Of a DNA stretch of 64,000 nucleotides, positions 25,167 through 33,124 are shown piece by piece. Within the stretch, counting starts at the first letter, position 1. Each line of letters starts with the position of its first letter. Source of the DNA: Streptomyces durmitorensis (GTDB lineage: Bacteria; Actinomycetota; Actinomycetes; Streptomycetales; Streptomycetaceae); NCBI RefSeq assembly GCF_023498005.1, contig NZ_CP097289.1, positions 8,184,001 to 8,248,000 of the forward strand, written 5' to 3'. The position numbers and the translations under genes were made by a program. Under the pieces are notes generated by a model. It was not told the origin of the DNA, ran no database searches, and was given only the letters and a program-made list of their open reading frames with translations.

Positions 25167-26492
25167 ATGGCACAGTCATCGTTCATGGGTCCTGCCACGC
25201 CTCGAAGCATGTCAGGACATCGGATGTCACGGCGGAATGTCCTGCGCGGTGCGGCCGTCGGCGCCGGAGCGGTCACCCTTCCGGCCCTGCTCACGGCCTG
25301 TGGCGATGGCCCGGGCGGCAACAAGAACGAAGTCACGATGGGCTCCAATTCATCGGACGCCGTTCCCAAGAAGGCGTTCGCCGCCGCCTTCGACGCCTAT
25401 GAGAAGAAGTCCGGGAAGACCGTCAAGGTCAACACGACAGAGCACAACGAGTTCCAGCAGAACATCACGCGCTATCTGCAGGGCACGCCCGACGACGTCT
25501 TCATGTGGTTCGCGGGCTATCGCATGCAGTACTTCGCGGAGAAGGGCCTGCTGATCGACATCAGCGACGTATGGAAGGGCTTCAAGGGCTTCTCCGACGC
25601 GTTGCGTGAGCAGTCCACACACGAAGGCAAGCAGTACTTCGTGCCGTATTACTACTACCCATGGGCCGTCTTCCACCGCAAGAGCCTCTTTGAGAAACAG
25701 GGCTACGAACAGGCCAAGACCTGGGACCAGTTCATCGCGCTCGCCAAGAAGATGAGCAAGGACGGCATACCGGTCGCCTTCTGCGACAAGGACGGCTGGC
25801 CCGCCATGGGCACCTTCGACTACATCAACATGCGCTTGAACGGATACGAGTTCCACAAGAGCCTGATGGCCGGCGAGGAAGCCTGGACCGACACGAAGGT
25901 CAAGAAGGTCTTCGACCTGTGGCGCGAACTCATGCCGTACTACCAGAAGGGCGCGCTCGGCCGCACCTGGGAAGAGGCGGGCCAGGGACTGCAGCAGCGC
26001 AAGACGGCCATGGCCGTCTTCGGCATGCCGCACCCCGGCCAGCAGTTCCCGGCGAACGAACGCGACGACATCGACTTCTTCGCCTTCCCCGAGATCGATC
26101 CGGCGCACGGGCAGGACGCCGTGGAAGCGCCGATCGACGGATTCCTGGTGGCGAAGAAATCGAAGAACGTCGACGGCGCCAAGGAACTCCTGAAGTGGCT
26201 CGGGACACCGAGGGCCGAGGACATCTATCTCGCGGGCGACCCCAACAACGTCGCGGTCAATGAGGGCGCCGACACCAGCAAGTACAGCCCACTGCAGAAG
26301 AAATCGGCCGAACTCGTCGCCGGGGCCGAACAGATCTCGCAGTTCCTCGACCGGGACACCCGGCCCGACTTCGCGCAGACCGTCATGATCAAGGCGCTGC
26401 AGGACTTCATCGACAATCCCAAGGACGTCGACGGCCTGGTCAACAGCATCGAGCGCCAGAAGAAGGACATCTTCTCGTCGGACGTCAGCTGA
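25167..26492 (+). CDS. Sugar ABC transporter substrate-binding lipoprotein
   Basis: A 441-residue binding protein with a Tat-type lipoprotein signal: SRRNVLRG followed by hydrophobic core and lipobox LLTAC, lipid-attachment Cys45. The mature part is a family 1 extracellular sugar-binding protein (FDAYEKKSGKTVKVNTTEH, GTPDDVFMWFAG, PYYYYPWAVFHRKSLFEKQG). ATG at 25167 follows GGAGGGGG. First gene of a three-gene import operon; located next to a secreted alpha-galactosidase, so galactose or a galactoside is the likely cargo. Confidence 0.93.
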   Translation: MAQSSFMGPATPRSMSGHRMSRRNVLRGAAVGAGAVTLPALLTACGDGPGGNKNEVTMGSNSSDAVPKKAFAAAFDAYEKKSGKTVKVNTTEHNEFQQNITRYLQGTPDDVFMWFAGYRMQYFAEKGLLIDISDVWKGFKGFSDALREQSTHEGKQYFVPYYYYPWAVFHRKSLFEKQGYEQAKTWDQFIALAKKMSKDGIPVAFCDKDGWPAMGTFDYINMRLNGYEFHKSLMAGEEAWTDTKVKKVFDLWRELMPYYQKGALGRTWEEAGQGLQQRKTAMAVFGMPHPGQQFPANERDDIDFFAFPEIDPAHGQDAVEAPIDGFLVAKKSKNVDGAKELLKWLGTPRAEDIYLAGDPNNVAVNEGADTSKYSPLQKKSAELVAGAEQISQFLDRDTRPDFAQTVMIKALQDFIDNPKDVDGLVNSIERQKKDIFSSDVS

Positions 26493-26511
26493 GTAGCGAG
26501 GGATCGCGCCC

Positions 26512-27426
26512 GTGCCGCAGAAAACCGCGCGGCGCGCCGGACGGCGAGGACCACGGCGCTTCTCGCGCCGTGACATCGCCGTGCTCGGCGTGCTACTGGG
26601 AATTCCCGTCCTCCTTGACATCTTCATCATATGGGGCCCGACCCTGGCCTCCGTCGGCCTGTCCTTCACGTCGTGGGACGGCATAGGCGACATCCAGTGG
26701 GTGGGCGGAAAGAACTACGAGAACCTGGTCGACAACTACCCGGCGTTCTGGCCCGCCGTCCGCCACAACCTGCTGTGGATCGCCTTCCTCGGCCTGGTGG
26801 CAACGCCGTTCGGCCTGCTCCTCGCGGTGGTCATCGACCGCGGAGTCCGCTTCAGCCGTTTCTACCAGTCCGTGCTCTACATGCCGGTGGTGCTCTCGCT
26901 CGCCGTGGTCGGCTTCATGGCCCAGCTGATCCTCGGCACCGACCAGGGCGTGATCAACACCATCCTCAACAACCAGAACGACCCGATCGACTGGCTCGGG
27001 AACTCCGACATCAACATCTGGATGATGATGCTGGCGGCGAGCTGGCGGCACACGGGCTACGTCATGATCCTTTACCTGGCCGGCCTTAAATCCGTAGACC
27101 CGGCCCTGAAAGAAGCAGCACAGATAGACGGCGCGAACGCCCGCCAGACGTTCTTCCGCGTCGTCTTCCCGACACTCCGCCCCGTGAATGTGATCGTCGG
27201 CGTCATCACGGTCATCGAGGCCCTGCGTGCCTTCGACATCGTCTACGCGGTCAACAAGGGCCGCAACGGCCTTGAACTGCTCTCCGTACTCATCACCGAC
27301 AACATCATCGGCGAGGCGAGCCGCATCGGATTCGGCTCGGCCATCGCGGTCGTACTCCTGACCGTCTCGCTCGGATTCATCGTGACGTTCCTGGTCCAAG
27401 AGCTGCGAGGTGCGCGCGACCGATGA
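26512..27426 (+). CDS. Sugar ABC transporter permease (MalF/UgpA-like)
   Basis: A 304-residue inner-membrane permease with six predicted helices (first near VLGVLLGIPVLLDIFIIWGP) and the EAA loop EAAQIDGANARQTFFRVVFP that docks the ATPase. GTG start, 19 bases after the lipoprotein gene. No ATPase is encoded nearby; streptomycete CUT1 importers share the MsiK ATPase encoded elsewhere. Confidence 0.93.
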   Translation: MPQKTARRAGRRGPRRFSRRDIAVLGVLLGIPVLLDIFIIWGPTLASVGLSFTSWDGIGDIQWVGGKNYENLVDNYPAFWPAVRHNLLWIAFLGLVATPFGLLLAVVIDRGVRFSRFYQSVLYMPVVLSLAVVGFMAQLILGTDQGVINTILNNQNDPIDWLGNSDINIWMMMLAASWRHTGYVMILYLAGLKSVDPALKEAAQIDGANARQTFFRVVFPTLRPVNVIVGVITVIEALRAFDIVYAVNKGRNGLELLSVLITDNIIGEASRIGFGSAIAVVLLTVSLGFIVTFLVQELRGARDR

Positions 27427-28349
27427 CCGCCGACATCCACACCACGCCGCGCTCCACCGCATCCGCGCCGCTCACAAAGAAGCAGAGCGGCCGAGGCCGC
27501 CGCCCCGGCCGTTTCGGGATCCACATCTTCCTGATGGCGGTGACCCTGGGCTTCCTTGCGCCACTGCTCCTGGCGGTCTATGCCTCCTTGCGCCCGTACG
27601 AGGAAACGGCGAAGCACGGCTATTTCTCGTTCCCGAAGAGCCTGTCGTTCGACTACTACCGCCAGGCCTACAGCGATTCCGGCATGGGCAAGTACTTCAC
27701 CAACACCTTGCTCATCGCGGTCCCGGCGGTCCTCGTCACGCTCTTCCTCGCGTCGTTCGTGGCATTCGCCGTCTCCCGCCTGCGCATCCGCGGGGGAATG
27801 ATCCTGCTGATGTTCTTCACGGCGGGAAACCTGCTGCCGCCACAGGTGCTCGTAACCCCCCTCTACGTCCTCTTCCTGAAAATCCCCCTTCCCTGGTGGA
27901 TGTCCGACTCCCTCACCCTGTACGACTCGTACTGGGCGATCATCATCGTCAACATCGGCTTCCAGGTGGGCTTCTGCGTCTTCGTGCTCTCCAATTTCAT
28001 GCGGACGCTGCCGCAGGAAATCCTGGAGGCGGCGATCGTGGACGGCGCGGGGGTATGGACCCAGTTCTGGCGCATCACACTGCCGTTGTGCCGCCCCGCG
28101 CTGGCAGCGCTCGGCACACTGGAATTCACCTGGATCTACAACGACTTCCTCTGGGCCCTGATCTTCATCTCGAACCCCGACAAACTCCCGATCACGTCAT
28201 CCCTGAACAACCTGCGGGGCCAGTTCTTCACGGACTACAACCTCCTGGCGGCAGGCTCGGTCCTGGTGGCCCTGCCCACGGTCCTGGTCTTCCTGTTGCT
28301 GCAGCGGCACTTCATCGCGGGGTTGACGTTGGGGTCGAGCAAGGGGTGA
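27423..28349 (+). CDS. Sugar ABC transporter permease (MalG/UgpE-like)
   Basis: A 308-residue permease whose ATG overlaps the previous stop (ATGA). Six helices, EAA loop EAAIVDGAGVWTQFWRITLP, and N-terminal Lys/Arg-rich cytoplasmic tail. Heterodimer partner of the preceding permease. The operon ends at a hairpin 12 bases downstream. Confidence 0.93.
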   Translation: MTADIHTTPRSTASAPLTKKQSGRGRRPGRFGIHIFLMAVTLGFLAPLLLAVYASLRPYEETAKHGYFSFPKSLSFDYYRQAYSDSGMGKYFTNTLLIAVPAVLVTLFLASFVAFAVSRLRIRGGMILLMFFTAGNLLPPQVLVTPLYVLFLKIPLPWWMSDSLTLYDSYWAIIIVNIGFQVGFCVFVLSNFMRTLPQEILEAAIVDGAGVWTQFWRITLPLCRPALAALGTLEFTWIYNDFLWALIFISNPDKLPITSSLNNLRGQFFTDYNLLAAGSVLVALPTVLVFLLLQRHFIAGLTLGSSKG

Positions 28350-28381: not shown

Positions 28382-29056
28382 TTACAGGGTGGTGAGGTGG
28401 CGTAGTTCCTGGACCAGTGGGGGCTGGGGGAGGGGGACGTTGCCGAGGTCGGGGTGGTTGCTTTGGGTGATGTGGTTGCGGAGTTGATCGATGAGGGGCG
28501 GGTTGAGGAGGGGGGCGGTCGCACGGTCTCCGCAGAGATAGGTGGGTTCGAAGTGGTGGCGGATGAGTTGGCGCCCCCAGTGGTCGGCATCGTGGTACTC
28601 GCCGGTCTGCGCGTGCTCAAGGAAGAGGCAGTACTCGGCGATGGGGTGGCCGGCGCCGGCGGCGAAGCGCCACCAGAAGCGGGCGCCTTCGGTGTCGTCG
28701 GCCAGGTGGAGCAGGCAGGCGAAGACCAGGGCGCCGGTTTTGTCGGCGTACTGGGCAGTGATGAAGTCGCTCACGTGCCGGTCCACGTCGGGGCCGAAGA
28801 GAATGAGCAGGCTGACCGCGTTCAGGTCCCACCAGGCATTGTCGGCGTCGGGGGCACGGTCGGCACCGGGCTCCGTCCATACAGGCGTCCATGCGGGCAC
28901 GGAAGGGGCGGTGGCGCTGCGCTGGCGGGTCGCTTGGCGCTGGCGTAGCCGGGTTTCGGCGGCGGCGATGTCGTAGTTGTCGTAGCGGTCGTGGGTGCGG
29001 GCCTTGCCCAGAAGGTCGTCGATGGTGCGGCGGTGGTCGGGCTGTGTGGTGCTCAT
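28382..29056 (-). CDS. Hypothetical protein, third gene of a sigma-factor operon
   Basis: A 224-residue soluble protein I do not recognise. The N-terminal third is charged and Arg/Gln-rich (ETRLRQRQATRQRS); the middle is helical with repeated aromatic pairs (NAWWDLNAVSLLILFGPDVD, ALVFACLLHLADDTEGARFWW, GHPIAEYCLFLEHA) that resemble helical-repeat pairs; the C-terminus is Pro/Leu-rich. Its ATG overlaps the stop of the sigma factor (ATGA), so it is made together with it. It could be an anti-sigma factor or partner, but no anti-sigma motif (such as HXXXCXXC) is present. Confidence 0.82.
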   Translation of the reverse strand: MSTTQPDHRRTIDDLLGKARTHDRYDNYDIAAAETRLRQRQATRQRSATAPSVPAWTPVWTEPGADRAPDADNAWWDLNAVSLLILFGPDVDRHVSDFITAQYADKTGALVFACLLHLADDTEGARFWWRFAAGAGHPIAEYCLFLEHAQTGEYHDADHWGRQLIRHHFEPTYLCGDRATAPLLNPPLIDQLRNHITQSNHPDLGNVPLPQPPLVQELRHLTTL

Positions 29057-29664
29057 GGGGTGCTCTTCCCGTGGCTGATGGCCGGGCGGTGGAGATTCAA
29101 CAGTTGAGCGAGGCGGCGGCGCCCCTGGCTGAGCTGGGAGCGGACGGTGGCCCCGTCGTTGCCCATCAGTGCGGCGGCTCCTGCGGAGGTGTAGCCCATG
29201 CCGTAGTAGAGGAGAATCGCGTCCCGTTGACGCTCGCTGAGACGGGCCACGGCACCGTACAGCGCGATCGTGTCGGTCAGAGCATCAAAGGGGTCCTCGG
29301 CGCTGCCGATGTTCAGGGCGGCTTCGAAGGCGGCGGTGTCCATCGGTTCGGGTCGGCGTCGGCGCTTGCGTCGCATGTCGATGATGCGGCGCTTCAGGAT
29401 TGTCCAGGCGTAGCCCTTGAGGTTCTCCATCTCCAGCATGTGCAGCCAGCGGTCCATGACCTGGTCGAAGGTCAGGTCGACAGCTTCTTCGGCGTCGGCG
29501 TCGGAGCTGAGCTGGAGGTACGCATAGCGCATGTAGTCCTGGCGGTGCTGCTGGTGAAAGGCCCAGTAGGCCATCTGTGCGGCGGGGTCCCACTGGTCGA
29601 TGGGGACCGCGCGCGGCACGCCGACTGCTCCGCCGGTCTCATCGGGCCCACTGTCGGTGTTCAT
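29053..29664 (-). CDS. RNA polymerase sigma-70-like factor (ECF-type)
   Basis: A 203-residue sigma factor with region 2 (YMRYAYLQLSSDADAEEAVD, then GYAWTILKRRIIDMRRKRRR binding the -10 side) and region 4 (VARLSERQRDAILLYYGMGY plus the HTH GNDGATVRSQLSQGRRRLAQ). Region 3 is absent, as in ECF factors. ATG at 29664 overlaps the stop of a small upstream ORF and its own stop overlaps the next ATG, giving a three-gene coupled unit. Target promoters and signal are unknown. Confidence 0.88.
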   Translation of the reverse strand: MNTDSGPDETGGAVGVPRAVPIDQWDPAAQMAYWAFHQQHRQDYMRYAYLQLSSDADAEEAVDLTFDQVMDRWLHMLEMENLKGYAWTILKRRIIDMRRKRRRRPEPMDTAAFEAALNIGSAEDPFDALTDTIALYGAVARLSERQRDAILLYYGMGYTSAGAAALMGNDGATVRSQLSQGRRRLAQLLNLHRPAISHGKSTP

Positions 29665-30379: not shown

Positions 30380-30670
30380 GTGGCCGATGCCGATGCCGGT
30401 GCCGAAGCCGAAGTCATCGTCCAACTCCGTGCGTTGGCGCGTCCCGCGAAGGCCGGGACTGCGGACGTCCTTGACGTCCGGCGCCTGCTGGAGCGGCGCT
30501 TCGGCGTCACGGCGGAGCCGTTGCACCCCGGTGTCGGCGACCCCGCCCTCATCGGATGGCAACGGGTCGCCGTCCCCGCCGGCGTGGATGCCGAGGCCGT
30601 CGCCACGGCTCTGCGCGACCACCCGGCAGTCGAGGCCGCCTATGTGAAACCACCGGCGGACCTTCCGTAA
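30380..30670 (+). CDS. Small protein resembling the pro-domain of the adjacent protease
   Basis: A 96-residue soluble protein. Its second half (FGVTAEPLHPGV, then VDAEAVATALRDHPAVEAAYVKPPA) lines up with the N-terminal pro-region of the next gene's product (VTIRPLFGA, then DQLDELAERLRASDAVEGAYVKPAA). The pattern, a strand, a helix, and a final strand ending in AYVKP, is that of subtilisin propeptide/inhibitor I9-like folds. A free-standing copy could be a chaperone or inhibitor of the protease. GTG start with GGGAGGG; 19 bases before the protease start. Confidence 0.75.
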   Translation: MADADAGAEAEVIVQLRALARPAKAGTADVLDVRRLLERRFGVTAEPLHPGVGDPALIGWQRVAVPAGVDAEAVATALRDHPAVEAAYVKPPADLP

Positions 30671-30689
30671 CGTGGTGAAGGAGTCAGCT

Positions 30690-32513
30690 GTGCCACAGCG
30701 ATCAGGTGCGGGGAACAGCCGGGGGGACAACCGCCCGGCTCCAGGATTCGAACCACCCTTCGGACGCCCTGAGTTGGTGTGCGTCACGCGCGCCGACGCC
30801 GGGGTACGCATCACCCCGACCGGCGCGACCGCCGCGTCGGACATCTCCGTCAGCGCTCTCGACGCCGTGGCGGCCCAGGAGGACGTCACCATCAGGCCGC
30901 TCTTCGGCGCCGACCAGGAGAGGCTGCGGGCCCAGGCGGAGACGGCCGCGGTGGGCGCCGGAGCCGACGACGCCACGATGGAGATCCTCGACAGGATGGC
31001 GCTCTTCTTCCACGTCGACGCGCCGGCCGACCAGTTGGACGAGCTGGCCGAGCGGCTCCGCGCGTCGGACGCCGTGGAGGGCGCCTACGTCAAGCCCGCT
31101 GCCGCCCTCGCCGTCCCCGAGGTCGTACCGAAGAAGAAGGAGAGCAAGGAGAGCGAGGAGAGCAAGGAGAGCGAGGAGGCCGAGCTCTCACCGCTCAACC
31201 TCATGCAGCCCTCGGGCGCCGACGCGCCGCCCGTGACCCCGGACTTCACCGTCCGACAGGGCTATCTCGACGCGGCTCCGGGTGGCGTCGACGCCCGCTA
31301 CGCGTGGACACAGCCGGGCGGGCGCGGTGCCGGCGTGCGGGTGATCGACTGCGAGTGGGGCTGGCGCTTCACGCATGAGGACCTGCGGCTGAACCAGGGC
31401 GGCATCGTCTCCGGCACCGGGAGCACGGACACCAACCACGGCACCGCCGTGCTCGGCGAAATCGGCGGCGACGTCAACGCGTTCGGGATCACCGGGATCG
31501 CGCCGGACGCGGTCACCAGTGCCTCCGCCTTCTCGATCCCCACGGCCACGGCGATCCGGAACGCCGCCGACCGTCTGGGCCCCGGCGACATCATCCTGCT
31601 GGAGATCCACCGCGCGGGGCCGCACGCGACCGGCGTAGGTCAGGTGGGGTACATCGCCGTCGAGTGGTGGCCGGACGACTATCTGGCCATCCGCTACGCC
31701 GTCAACAAGGGCATCACCGTCGTCGAGGCCGCGGGCAACGGCGCGGAGGACCTGGACCACGCCGACTACGACACCCCGAGGGCGGGCTTCCCCTCCTGGT
31801 GGCGCAACCCCTTCCGGCGCACCGCGCTGGACGCCGGCGCCGTGATCGTCGGTGCCGGGGCGCCGCCGCCCGGCACCCACGGCCGCCAGCACGGCCCTGA
31901 CCGGTCCCGCCTCGACTTCTCCAACTACGGCGCCTGCGTGGACGCGCAGGGCTGGGGACGCGAGGTGACCACCACCGGATACGGCGACCTCCAGGCGGGC
32001 ACCAATCCGGACTTCTGGTACACGGACCAGTTCAGCGGCACGTCCAGCGCCTCGCCGATCGTCGTGGGTGCGCTGGCGAGCACTCAGGGCGTCCTGCGCG
32101 CCGGCGGCCGCATCCCGCTGTCACCCTCGCGGGCCCGGCAGCTGCTGCGCGCCACCGGCTCACCGCAGCAGGACGCGCCCGGCCGCCCGGCGACCCAGCG
32201 CATCGGCAGGCGGCCCGACCTGCGGCAGCTCATCCCGGCGGCCCTCCAGACGAACAGCTGGGTCGGCGTCCAGTTCCGCGGCACCCTCGCGGGGAACCGC
32301 ACCGGCCGCTGGTTCACCTTCAACTGGCCCGCCCACTGGCACGTGGTGTGGACGGTCGTCCCGACCAGTCCGCGCACGGGCGCCCCGCAGATCGGCTGGA
32401 AGGTCCGGGTCGAGCGGGCCAACGACACGTACGCGACGTACTGGATCGACGTGACGAACCTCGTGGCCGACTCGGTCGACTTCGAGGCCCGGTTCGCGGT
32501 TCTCGGATGGTGA
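30690..32513 (+). CDS. Subtilisin-like S8 serine peptidase with I9-like pro-domain and C-terminal beta domain
   Basis: A 607-residue protein. Order: pro-region (about 1-150) ending GAYVKPAAAL; a Lys/Glu/Ser linker (KKKESKESEESKESEE); S8 catalytic domain with Asp220 (GVRVIDCEWG), His250 (TNHGTAVLGEIGG), oxyanion Asn350 (EAAGNGAED) and Ser452 (FSGTSSASPIVVGAL); C-terminal domain of about 85 residues (GRWFTFNWPAHWHVVW). No signal peptide or transmembrane helix is visible, unusual for this class, so it may act inside the cell or leave by a non-classical route. The GTG at 30690 is chosen because AAGGAG sits 6 bases upstream; GTG at 30672 is an alternative. Confidence 0.9.
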   Translation: MPQRSGAGNSRGDNRPAPGFEPPFGRPELVCVTRADAGVRITPTGATAASDISVSALDAVAAQEDVTIRPLFGADQERLRAQAETAAVGAGADDATMEILDRMALFFHVDAPADQLDELAERLRASDAVEGAYVKPAAALAVPEVVPKKKESKESEESKESEEAELSPLNLMQPSGADAPPVTPDFTVRQGYLDAAPGGVDARYAWTQPGGRGAGVRVIDCEWGWRFTHEDLRLNQGGIVSGTGSTDTNHGTAVLGEIGGDVNAFGITGIAPDAVTSASAFSIPTATAIRNAADRLGPGDIILLEIHRAGPHATGVGQVGYIAVEWWPDDYLAIRYAVNKGITVVEAAGNGAEDLDHADYDTPRAGFPSWWRNPFRRTALDAGAVIVGAGAPPPGTHGRQHGPDRSRLDFSNYGACVDAQGWGREVTTTGYGDLQAGTNPDFWYTDQFSGTSSASPIVVGALASTQGVLRAGGRIPLSPSRARQLLRATGSPQQDAPGRPATQRIGRRPDLRQLIPAALQTNSWVGVQFRGTLAGNRTGRWFTFNWPAHWHVVWTVVPTSPRTGAPQIGWKVRVERANDTYATYWIDVTNLVADSVDFEARFAVLGW

Positions 32514-32526
32514 GAGGAAAACGACG

Positions 32527-32781
32527 ATGCGCGTAGGCACACAGTTCACCGGAACACTCAACCCCGGGCAGACCGGGCGCTGGTTCACCTTCAACTGGCC
32601 GCAGGGCTGGCACGTCATCTGGTACTTCATGCCGACGACACCGCAGACGGGCAGCCCGCAGATCGAGTGGGAGACCGAGGTCGAACGGGCCACGGCCACG
32701 ACGGTCACGTACTGGCTGACGGTGAAGAACATCGGCAGCACCCAGATGAACTTCGAAGGCCGGTACGCGGTTCTCAACTAG
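32527..32781 (+). CDS. Stand-alone copy of the protease C-terminal domain
   Basis: An 84-residue protein with no other domain. By eye about 45 of 80 positions match the protease's last domain, including TGRWFTFNWP, WHV-W, the TG-PQI-W core and the final R-AVL. All-beta character with many Trp/Phe/Tyr suggests a compact beta-sandwich that binds a ligand or another copy of itself. Starts 13 bases after the protease stop, in the same transcript. Probably a tandem partial duplication kept under selection. Confidence 0.85.
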   Translation: MRVGTQFTGTLNPGQTGRWFTFNWPQGWHVIWYFMPTTPQTGSPQIEWETEVERATATTVTYWLTVKNIGSTQMNFEGRYAVLN

Positions 32782-32794
32782 GCGGGGGAAGCCC

Positions 32795-33124
32795 ATGAAG
32801 GTGCATGTCACGATCTCGGAGGACGCGGGCGCGGCCCCGGCAGCCGCGTCGGAGCGGCAGCTCTCCGTGGCGCGGGAGACCGCCGCCGCGGGCGCCGTGG
32901 ACGCCGGGCCCGCCTCGGCGGCGGGGGCCGAGCAGGGCCCGGCAGGGTCCGTGACGGACGGCGGCGAGTCCCCGGGCTGGCTCGCCGAACTCGTCCGGCT
33001 CGCCGACGCCGGAGAGGTGGCCCGCCCCGGTGAGGAGCCGCAGGAGACCCGAGGGTCCACGGCGCGAGGGCCCTCGGAGGGACCGGTCATGGAGGCAGGG
33101 AGCGCGGGGCCGGCTCCGGGCTGA
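32795..33124 (+). CDS. Hypothetical Ala/Gly/Glu-rich protein, last gene of protease island
   Basis: A 109-residue low-complexity acidic protein, MKVHVTISEDAG at the start, Ala/Gly/Pro-rich middle, and one helix SPGWLAELVRLADAGEVARP. GGGGGAAG precedes the ATG, 13 bases after the previous stop, so it belongs to the same operon. Likely disordered; it could be a substrate, tail or adaptor of the protease. The 250 bases after it show no gene. Confidence 0.65.
   Translation: MKVHVTISEDAGAAPAAASERQLSVARETAAAGAVDAGPASAAGAEQGPAGSVTDGGESPGWLAELVRLADAGEVARPGEEPQETRGSTARGPSEGPVMEAGSAGPAPG

Follow-up and report, generated by a model that had tools for sequence, protein, structure and literature searches.

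The described systems closest to the locus reported here each concern a small protein or domain that accompanies an effector. Stand-alone propeptide-like inhibitors include the yeast proteinase B inhibitor, Pleurotus POIA1, Arabidopsis SPI-1, TgMIC5 and SUB1-ProM (PMC6993865, excerpted text). In Myxococcus xanthus, PopD binds PopC, a subtilisin devoid of signal peptide, and blocks its secretion until starvation, so that a signal-less subtilisin can, as far as the excerpted account goes, be held by a binding partner and secreted later (PMC6434023). The effector-associated domains (EADs) are, in the portion of the source at hand, small non-enzymatic domains of exchangeable effectors, often with a second copy in the adjacent gene and thought to make homotypic contacts (PMC7159879). 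We analysed a 64,000-nucleotide stretch of Streptomyces durmitorensis DNA (contig NZ_CP097289.1, positions 8,184,001 to 8,248,000; hereafter the window), which belongs to a genome of 9.86 Mb. At 30380..33124 it carries a module of four genes, in which a subtilisin-like protease of family S8 is preceded by a free copy of its own N-terminal region (the front copy) and followed by a free copy of its own C-terminal domain (D) and by a low-complexity protein.

Each of the known systems appears to match one element of this module and none, within the passages of these sources, the whole. The front copy shares with the stand-alone inhibitors a small free propeptide-type fold, and the SUB1-ProM gene likewise adjoins subtilase genes; the inhibitors of that excerpt are eukaryotic, however, whereas here the gene row is prokaryotic and the opposite end of the enzyme is duplicated in it as well, inhibition being a prediction from sequence. 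PopC resembles the window protease, by description rather than by sequence, as a subtilisin without signal peptide, but for PopC/PopD the text excerpted describes neither a free C-terminal domain nor a motif protein, nor any exchange of effectors. According to the same partial source, EADs have helical or alpha+beta folds and are borne by core proteins of their systems, whereas the all-beta D has its second copy as a protein on its own. A literature search by titles and the beginnings of abstracts returned no description of D or of its gene order; for this reason, and because the known systems match single elements, we rate the module as apparently new, with a predicted function. Its features are as follows:

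30380..30670, + strand: 96-aa front copy, a free copy of the effector N-terminal region (codon score; ratio of non-synonymous to synonymous substitution rates, dN/dS; profile homology; AlphaFold2, AF2, model)
30672..32513, + strand: S8 subtilase effector, 613 aa, or 607 aa if translation starts at GTG 30690 (PF00082, catalytic residues)
30777..31109 (limits approximate), + strand: pro-domain-like N-terminal region of the effector, to just past AYVKP (profile match to the upstream family)
31224..32240, + strand: S8 catalytic core (Pfam, family alignment)
32259..32510, + strand: fused D domain at the effector C-terminus (hidden Markov model, HMM, E 1e-40)
32527..32781, + strand: stand-alone D, 84 aa (HMM E 6e-40; 57% identity to fused D)
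32795..33124, + strand: 109-aa low-complexity protein with a MKVHVTI beta-like N-terminal segment and DAGxxP-type motifs (codon score 22.5)

The free D aligns with residues 531-611 of the protease at 57% identity (46/81, 105 bits), close to the 55% that a first-pass annotation of this DNA had estimated by eye. AF2 models it with six strands at a predicted local distance difference test score (pLDDT) of 97.2. To trace its relatives, a five-sequence alignment of D was run against one genome each of 84,980 species, and 99 stretches were confirmed. The best 80 of the 99, ranked by similarity to the free D of the window, were kept and, together with the window and locus L069, give 82 distinct loci (of 83, L070 and L145 being one locus, counted once). 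In these loci the observed anatomy is an effector that ends in D, joined as a rule by a free D and by a motif protein of low complexity; for most effectors of the S8 class and many of the propeller class, an effector-specific free copy of all or part of the N-terminal region is present as well. By six-frame HMM search, which also counts free copies lost by the gene caller, two D in tandem on the same strand are present in 71 of the 82 loci, at a median spacing of 32 nt (15-404); in all 82 fused copies only 0-5 residues follow D, which thus sits at the end of the enzyme in the manner of a tag.

The bacterial hosts belong to the Actinomycetota, Bacteroidota, Cyanobacteriota, Pseudomonadota, Chloroflexota, Thermomicrobiota, Acidobacteriota, Armatimonadota and Desulfobulbaceae, the archaeal ones to Haloferax and the Methanotrichaceae; few Streptomyces genomes have D (3 of 199). 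The fused D terminates S8 proteases in 46 loci, Sortilin-Vps10/BNR propellers of about 850 aa in 16, astacins in 7, protein-glutaminases (Gln_deamidase_2) in 5, M64 peptidases in 3, a 350-aa class without Pfam match in 3, and a BNR protein and an unclassed 251-aa protein in one locus each, these classes having been assigned by Pfam for one or two members and by motif or length for the others. Fused and free D occur together with S8, propeller, M12A, M64, protein-glutaminase, 350-aa and BNR effectors, the 251-aa protein being the exception, and the free D and the motif gene are thus independent of the effector class. The first-pass annotation had proposed a regulated protease system here, with activation, targeting or toxin-immunity-like control as candidates: the conservation of the flanks and the intact protease are consistent with regulation, whereas the tie of the free D and the fourth gene to a protease does not hold, since several types of effector take its place. 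A phage or plasmid origin was considered and set aside, with no confirmed relative on viral contigs (0 of 24 pattern stretches) and a single plasmid record, in Haloferax mediterranei.

In a tree of D sequences (153 rows, 84 columns; 37 of 145 inner branches open), fused and free copies form mostly separate, parallel lineages that track the effector class. The exceptions (by locus, L097 and L117/L124) include the free D of Lunatibacter and Haloferax, which group with their own fused D; in addition, a group of 26 rows mixes free and fused D of astacin and Zobellia-type S8 loci. The distance matrices of fused and free D are correlated over 69 pairs (r 0.789, with 0 of 2000 permutations as high), and a partial r of 0.45 is left in the S8 class (35 loci) once the catalytic core is removed.

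These patterns bear on one alternative, that the flanking genes are functionless leftovers of tandem duplication. Both flanks are partial copies of the effector and the free D is absent from some loci (11/82), as leftovers might be, but dN/dS lies at 0.21-0.44 for the 84- and 96-aa genes, the D lineages run largely in parallel across phyla and, as set out below, the neighbouring gene also matches an unrelated C-terminal domain where D is replaced. This conservation largely refutes the idea, which we consider very improbable.

All four open reading frames (ORFs) score as coding by codon usage (96 aa, 19.3; protease, 255.7; 84 aa, 36.0; 109 aa, 22.5), and they follow one another by less than 20 bases, as first described: the gap between the 96-aa gene and the protease is 1 nt from GTG 30672 or 19 nt from GTG 30690, and the two later gaps are of 13 nt each. 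GTG 30690 has AAGGAG 6 nt upstream and agrees by eye with the called start in L074; the codon caller chose a third start, at 30777. Compared with L071 and L072, respectively, dN/dS is 0.35/0.44 for the 96-aa gene, 0.23/0.25 for the protease (from 30777 on), 0.27/0.21 for the 84-aa gene and 0.54/0.82 for the 109-aa gene, all four being under purifying selection, the fourth weakly.

The protease matches PF00082 (E 3.4e-10, 40.2 bits against a cut-off of 21.8) and has the Asp/His/Ser triad and oxyanion Asn of the S8 peptidases, with D226, H256, N356 and S458 (nt 31347, 31437, 31737 and 32043) all intact, so that the dead enzyme which the first-pass annotation had named as a threat to its reading is not what is found. 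Among the 44 aligned members of the family, Asp and His are each conserved in 43 and Asn and Ser in 44, L120 being the exception. An assignment as a mycosin of the type VII secretion system was rejected, the NCBIfam equivalog scoring 29.3 bits against the 278.75 required. By a simple hydrophobicity rule no signal peptide is seen in the window protease, in agreement with the initial description.

At the front of the module, the likeness noted earlier between the 96-aa protein and the pro-domain, both ending in AYVKP, is weak when the two proteins are compared directly (24 residues, E 0.002) and strong between profiles. When 28 upstream proteins were compared with 44 effector N-termini by hhalign, 97 columns aligned with a Prob of 98.3 and an E value of 1.6e-14; the three cross-class comparisons run as controls gave a Prob of 0.1-0.3%. 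Judged from these profiles, the 96-aa family is clearly homologous to the effector's own N-terminal region. An HMM of the S8-class front copy finds it upstream in 33 of the 42 testable S8 loci (45 with L120 omitted, minus 3 truncated; L121, first lost to a length filter, is among the 33) and in none of the 34 loci of other effector classes. Of the loci tested, 28 had also supplied the training set of this HMM; the 5 of the 33 outside the training set (L088, L099, L127, L140, L141) match at E 8e-13 to 3e-27. In the propeller class, a small gene is called ≤300 nt upstream in 10 of 16 loci, and the upstream profile shares with the effector N-terminus a 20-residue motif, GGxAAERLxxFExARG (Prob 84.7, E 6.6e-6). 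The front copy tracks the effector class and the free D does not, given the class-specific profile matches on the one hand and the occurrence of the free D across classes on the other. The AF2 model of the 96-aa protein (pLDDT 78.7) has the topology of a subtilisin propeptide, although this fold is very common, and the matches in the Protein Data Bank (PDB) do not discriminate, being generic ferredoxin-like and including site-one protease, PCSK9 and fungal alkaline protease among many others. Fervidolysin_NPro-like reaches 15.2 bits against a cut-off of 21 for the window protein, a weak match, and 4 of 27 members are at E ≤0.1.

The fourth protein had been described as a disordered, Ala/Gly-rich product; it is of low complexity and is also a recurring component that bears motifs. 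Of 81 loci, 75 have an ORF of 40-170 aa with at least one motif ≤1.1 kb behind the fused D, compared with 7 of 356 control windows; for at least two motifs the figures are 47 of 81 and 0 of 356, and a stricter motif count gives 40 of 81 loci against 0 of 426 controls. The motif, of D/N/S-A/G-G-x-P-P type, was defined from the same loci in which it was counted. By eye, many of these proteins start with MRIxIEID or a similar segment, and in S8 loci the motif is often extended to DAGGPPxWLxxAI. The search for the same gene order in other genomes that the first-pass annotation had suggested thus recovers the fused and free D and the motif ORF in most loci, with the front copy in most of the S8 class, and the flanking genes whose lack of conservation it had feared are conserved. 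In the astacin class, the motif gene lies between the fused and the free D. Astacin loci L069 (7641-7907), L144, L146, L147, L149 and L150 also hold an extra gene of 88-109 aa with a LRVRxxDVxLADAP-like segment after the free D.

That the back end of the enzyme is D holds in the 82 loci; it does not hold in 27 whole loci found among 199 Streptomyces genomes, one of them in the genome of the window, where a protease of the same family ends in a different domain, here called Q-class, and the neighbour then carries that domain. Two further candidates are omitted from the 27: a 28th protease of Q-class type (G168, L067), truncated where its contig stops, and a fragment (L068, in G124) without a called match. 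D and the Q-class C-terminal domain are unrelated by profile (Prob 0.1). The next gene encodes a Q-rich low-complexity protein ending in the Q-class domain in 23 of the 27 loci by rule and in 24 by reading (L055), and a profile of the 23 neighbours matches the enzyme C-terminal domain with a Prob of 97.9 and E 5.9e-13. Since in most of these loci the neighbour ends in the same domain as the enzyme, the enzyme end and its partner differ together. The 25 Q-class cores present in a tree of 70 form one clade (100/100).

D itself has no convincing match in Pfam (best E 0.0074 among 83 D sequences), and its profile finds nothing at E ≤1 among PDB sequences; no model of Pfam, NCBIfam or PADLOC exceeds its cut-off for the 96-, 84- or 109-aa proteins. 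The pre-peptidase C-terminal domain (PPC) is absent among the 11 Pfam families matched by the 83 D sequences at E ≤0.1, and D was rejected as a PPC domain in the sense of that family. The best fold neighbours of D include the Tk-SP jelly roll and the collagenase PPC and collagen-binding (CBD) domains, which are, like D, C-terminal beta-sandwiches, in their case on secreted proteases. Sorting domains of the type IX secretion system are C-terminal beta-sandwich tags on diverse hydrolases. Compared by description, the cargoes of that system have Sec signals and it involves an outer membrane, whereas D sits on signal-less enzymes and occurs in Actinomycetota and archaea. The fold neighbours would suit a D that binds substrates or surfaces in the manner of PPC or collagen-binding domains, the free D being a second binding unit or a decoy and no carrier existing at all; the conserved free copy and the joint replacement of enzyme end and neighbour must then be set beside the fold, and we regard this explanation as rather unlikely.

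The reading that we prefer, tentatively, is that the module belongs to a scattered modular system that handles signal-less hydrolytic enzymes, in which the front copy restrains the enzyme and the D set carries it. The free N-terminal copy would fold onto its own effector class and keep the enzyme inactive, as a stand-alone propeptide does; the free D would associate with the fused D, the two being subunits of like shape; and the motif protein may offer several binding sites, making up with D and free D an effector-independent carrier or scaffold. Such a carrier would hold the enzyme until its release, probably outside the cytoplasm, where the substrates are. A more far-reaching version, which we hold with still less assurance, extends this to an undescribed carrier system across bacteria and archaea: each of a number of unrelated hydrolases would bear a C-terminal docking domain (D or the Q-class domain) and pair through it with a free domain of that type, a disordered multi-motif cross-linker would assemble a depot or export-competent complex, the effector-specific N-terminal copy would silence the enzyme until release, and the docking type would be exchanged jointly with its partner.

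A series of observations weighs against the preferred reading. The front copy is not found by its HMM in 9 of the 42 testable S8 loci, and 5 of 27 front copies match ACT_4 of Pfam (best E 5e-5). In L160 (4020-7059) an N-terminal copy precedes an S8 enzyme with a propeller-like C-terminal domain and no adjoining copy of it. The fused D is alone in 11 of 82 loci, so the free D is not essential, the more so as the search favoured loci that have one; loci without it are probably under-counted because the ranking favours free D like that of the window. Among 69 fused copies, just 13 have the free D of their own locus as their closest match among the free copies, and the fused/free pair is therefore mostly old. 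The fourth gene is weakly constrained, as its dN/dS values show, and a next-gene partner was not found in three of the 27 Q-class loci (L062, L064, L066). As to export, a lipoprotein-type signal is confined to one clade, clustering and reading of the flanks revealed no recognisable secretion system, and ABC-type ATPases lie near 7 of 80 loci at variable positions. Genes of the ABC ATPase and two-component types abound in genomes generally.

The flanks, of ≤6 kb, were clustered and the 25 largest clusters examined and named by reading. BTAD-like regulators, ABC-type ATPases and mixed two-component genes appear in 7 loci each and a small membrane protein in 4, the rest being module genes or limited to certain taxa. 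The BTAD-like regulator, recognised by eye, lies near L071, L072, L073, L090, L091, L108 and L109, loci of three effector classes; none is called beside the window locus.

The N-termini of the module proteins give a hint of where the enzymes may act. The 78 effectors called in the 82 loci show no signal-like N-terminus, the best hydrophobicity being 1.76 against 2.38 and 2.52 for two typed yardsticks. Among the front copies, 3 of 28 have a signal-like N-terminus (2.54-3.34), all in Chloroflexota (L100:3865-4230, L103:3757-4122, L104:401-766), with a LVAC or LIAC lipobox by eye and effectors that lack a signal. These lipoprotein-type sequences hint at action outside the cytoplasm in that lineage.

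The signal-less effectors, by the simple rule used, may also be read as parts of an intracellular conflict system, in which a suicide or defence enzyme is held off by the N-terminal copy and recruited through D-D contacts in the manner of EADs. The patchy occurrence in bacteria and archaea, with one plasmid copy, is consistent with this, and the excerpted account of EADs describes both a neighbouring gene that encodes the domain a second time and recruitment through homotypic contacts, also of proteases (PMC7159879); that EAD-type trait is seen in 71 of 82 loci. Against it, no core gene with a vWA, MoxR, GTPase or NTPase/STAND domain was recognised by reading among the flank clusters present in at least 4 of 80 loci, PADLOC returned nothing for the four window proteins, and the viral contigs yielded no confirmed relative. 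M64 peptidases, astacins and protein-glutaminases are, moreover, typically extracellular, and the Chloroflexota front copies are of lipoprotein type. On balance a conflict system seems unlikely to us.

An exported weapon with its immunity protein is a further alternative, the enzyme striking neighbouring cells, possibly as the cargo that an injection system delivers, and the front copy protecting the producer. Such a role would fit the effector specificity of the front copy and its lipoprotein-type signal in three loci, and the marker PF14065 of extracellular contractile injection systems (eCIS) exceeds its cut-off in 16 of 36 of the genomes behind the 82 loci compared with 24 of 296 genomes of the phylum. 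Matched controls for four groups, centre genome included, shrink this excess: PF14065 is found in 4/5 D genomes against 127/199 in Streptomyces, 2/3 against 25/60 in Lentzea, 1/2 against 13/60 in Agromyces and 1/1 against 7/41 in Caballeronia, or pooled in 8 of 11 where about 5 are expected. In Q-class genomes it occurs in 20 of 27, against 128 of 199 overall (E ≤0.001). The eCIS excess is thus mostly taxonomy, which weakens the cargo idea; nor was an export apparatus recognised in the flanks, and the propeller front copy has just the 20-residue motif in common with its effector. We consider a weapon improbable.

If the restraint-and-carrier reading is correct, the module would represent a general means by which prokaryotes store and deploy folded enzymes that lack a signal peptide and could harm the cell itself, whether these are proteases, a deamidase or propeller proteins. 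The D domain and the genes for free D and for the motif protein could then serve as genome-search markers for new effectors, and the route of signal-less hydrolases to their substrates would become testable with small proteins of 84-109 aa. The pairing of a domain with a free copy of itself across many phyla makes D an obvious target even if the mechanism is set aside.

Some loci hold further genes of possible interest. A membrane protein of 71-79 aa is encoded near propeller modules (L076:6551-6766, L089, L095, L113; similar by eye in L077 and L094), downstream of the module in L076, L089 and L113. Separate astacin-type genes, assigned by motif, lie near S8-class D loci (L097:7323-8357, L099:1374-2213, L117:7238-8140). 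Two astacin-class modules of the strain Lentzea sp. NEAU-D7, L149 and L150, are nearly identical and lie on separate contigs, perhaps as an assembly duplicate. On the Haloferax mediterranei plasmid (L165:1-3874), annotated ABC importer genes directly adjoin the module upstream, and by eye ABC importer genes also lie upstream of the window module (25224-28349); since such genes are common, their proximity is probably due to chance. Between these and the module, at 28382-29664 on the - strand of the window, an extracytoplasmic function (ECF)-type sigma factor gene, recognised by eye, and its partner are divergent from the module.

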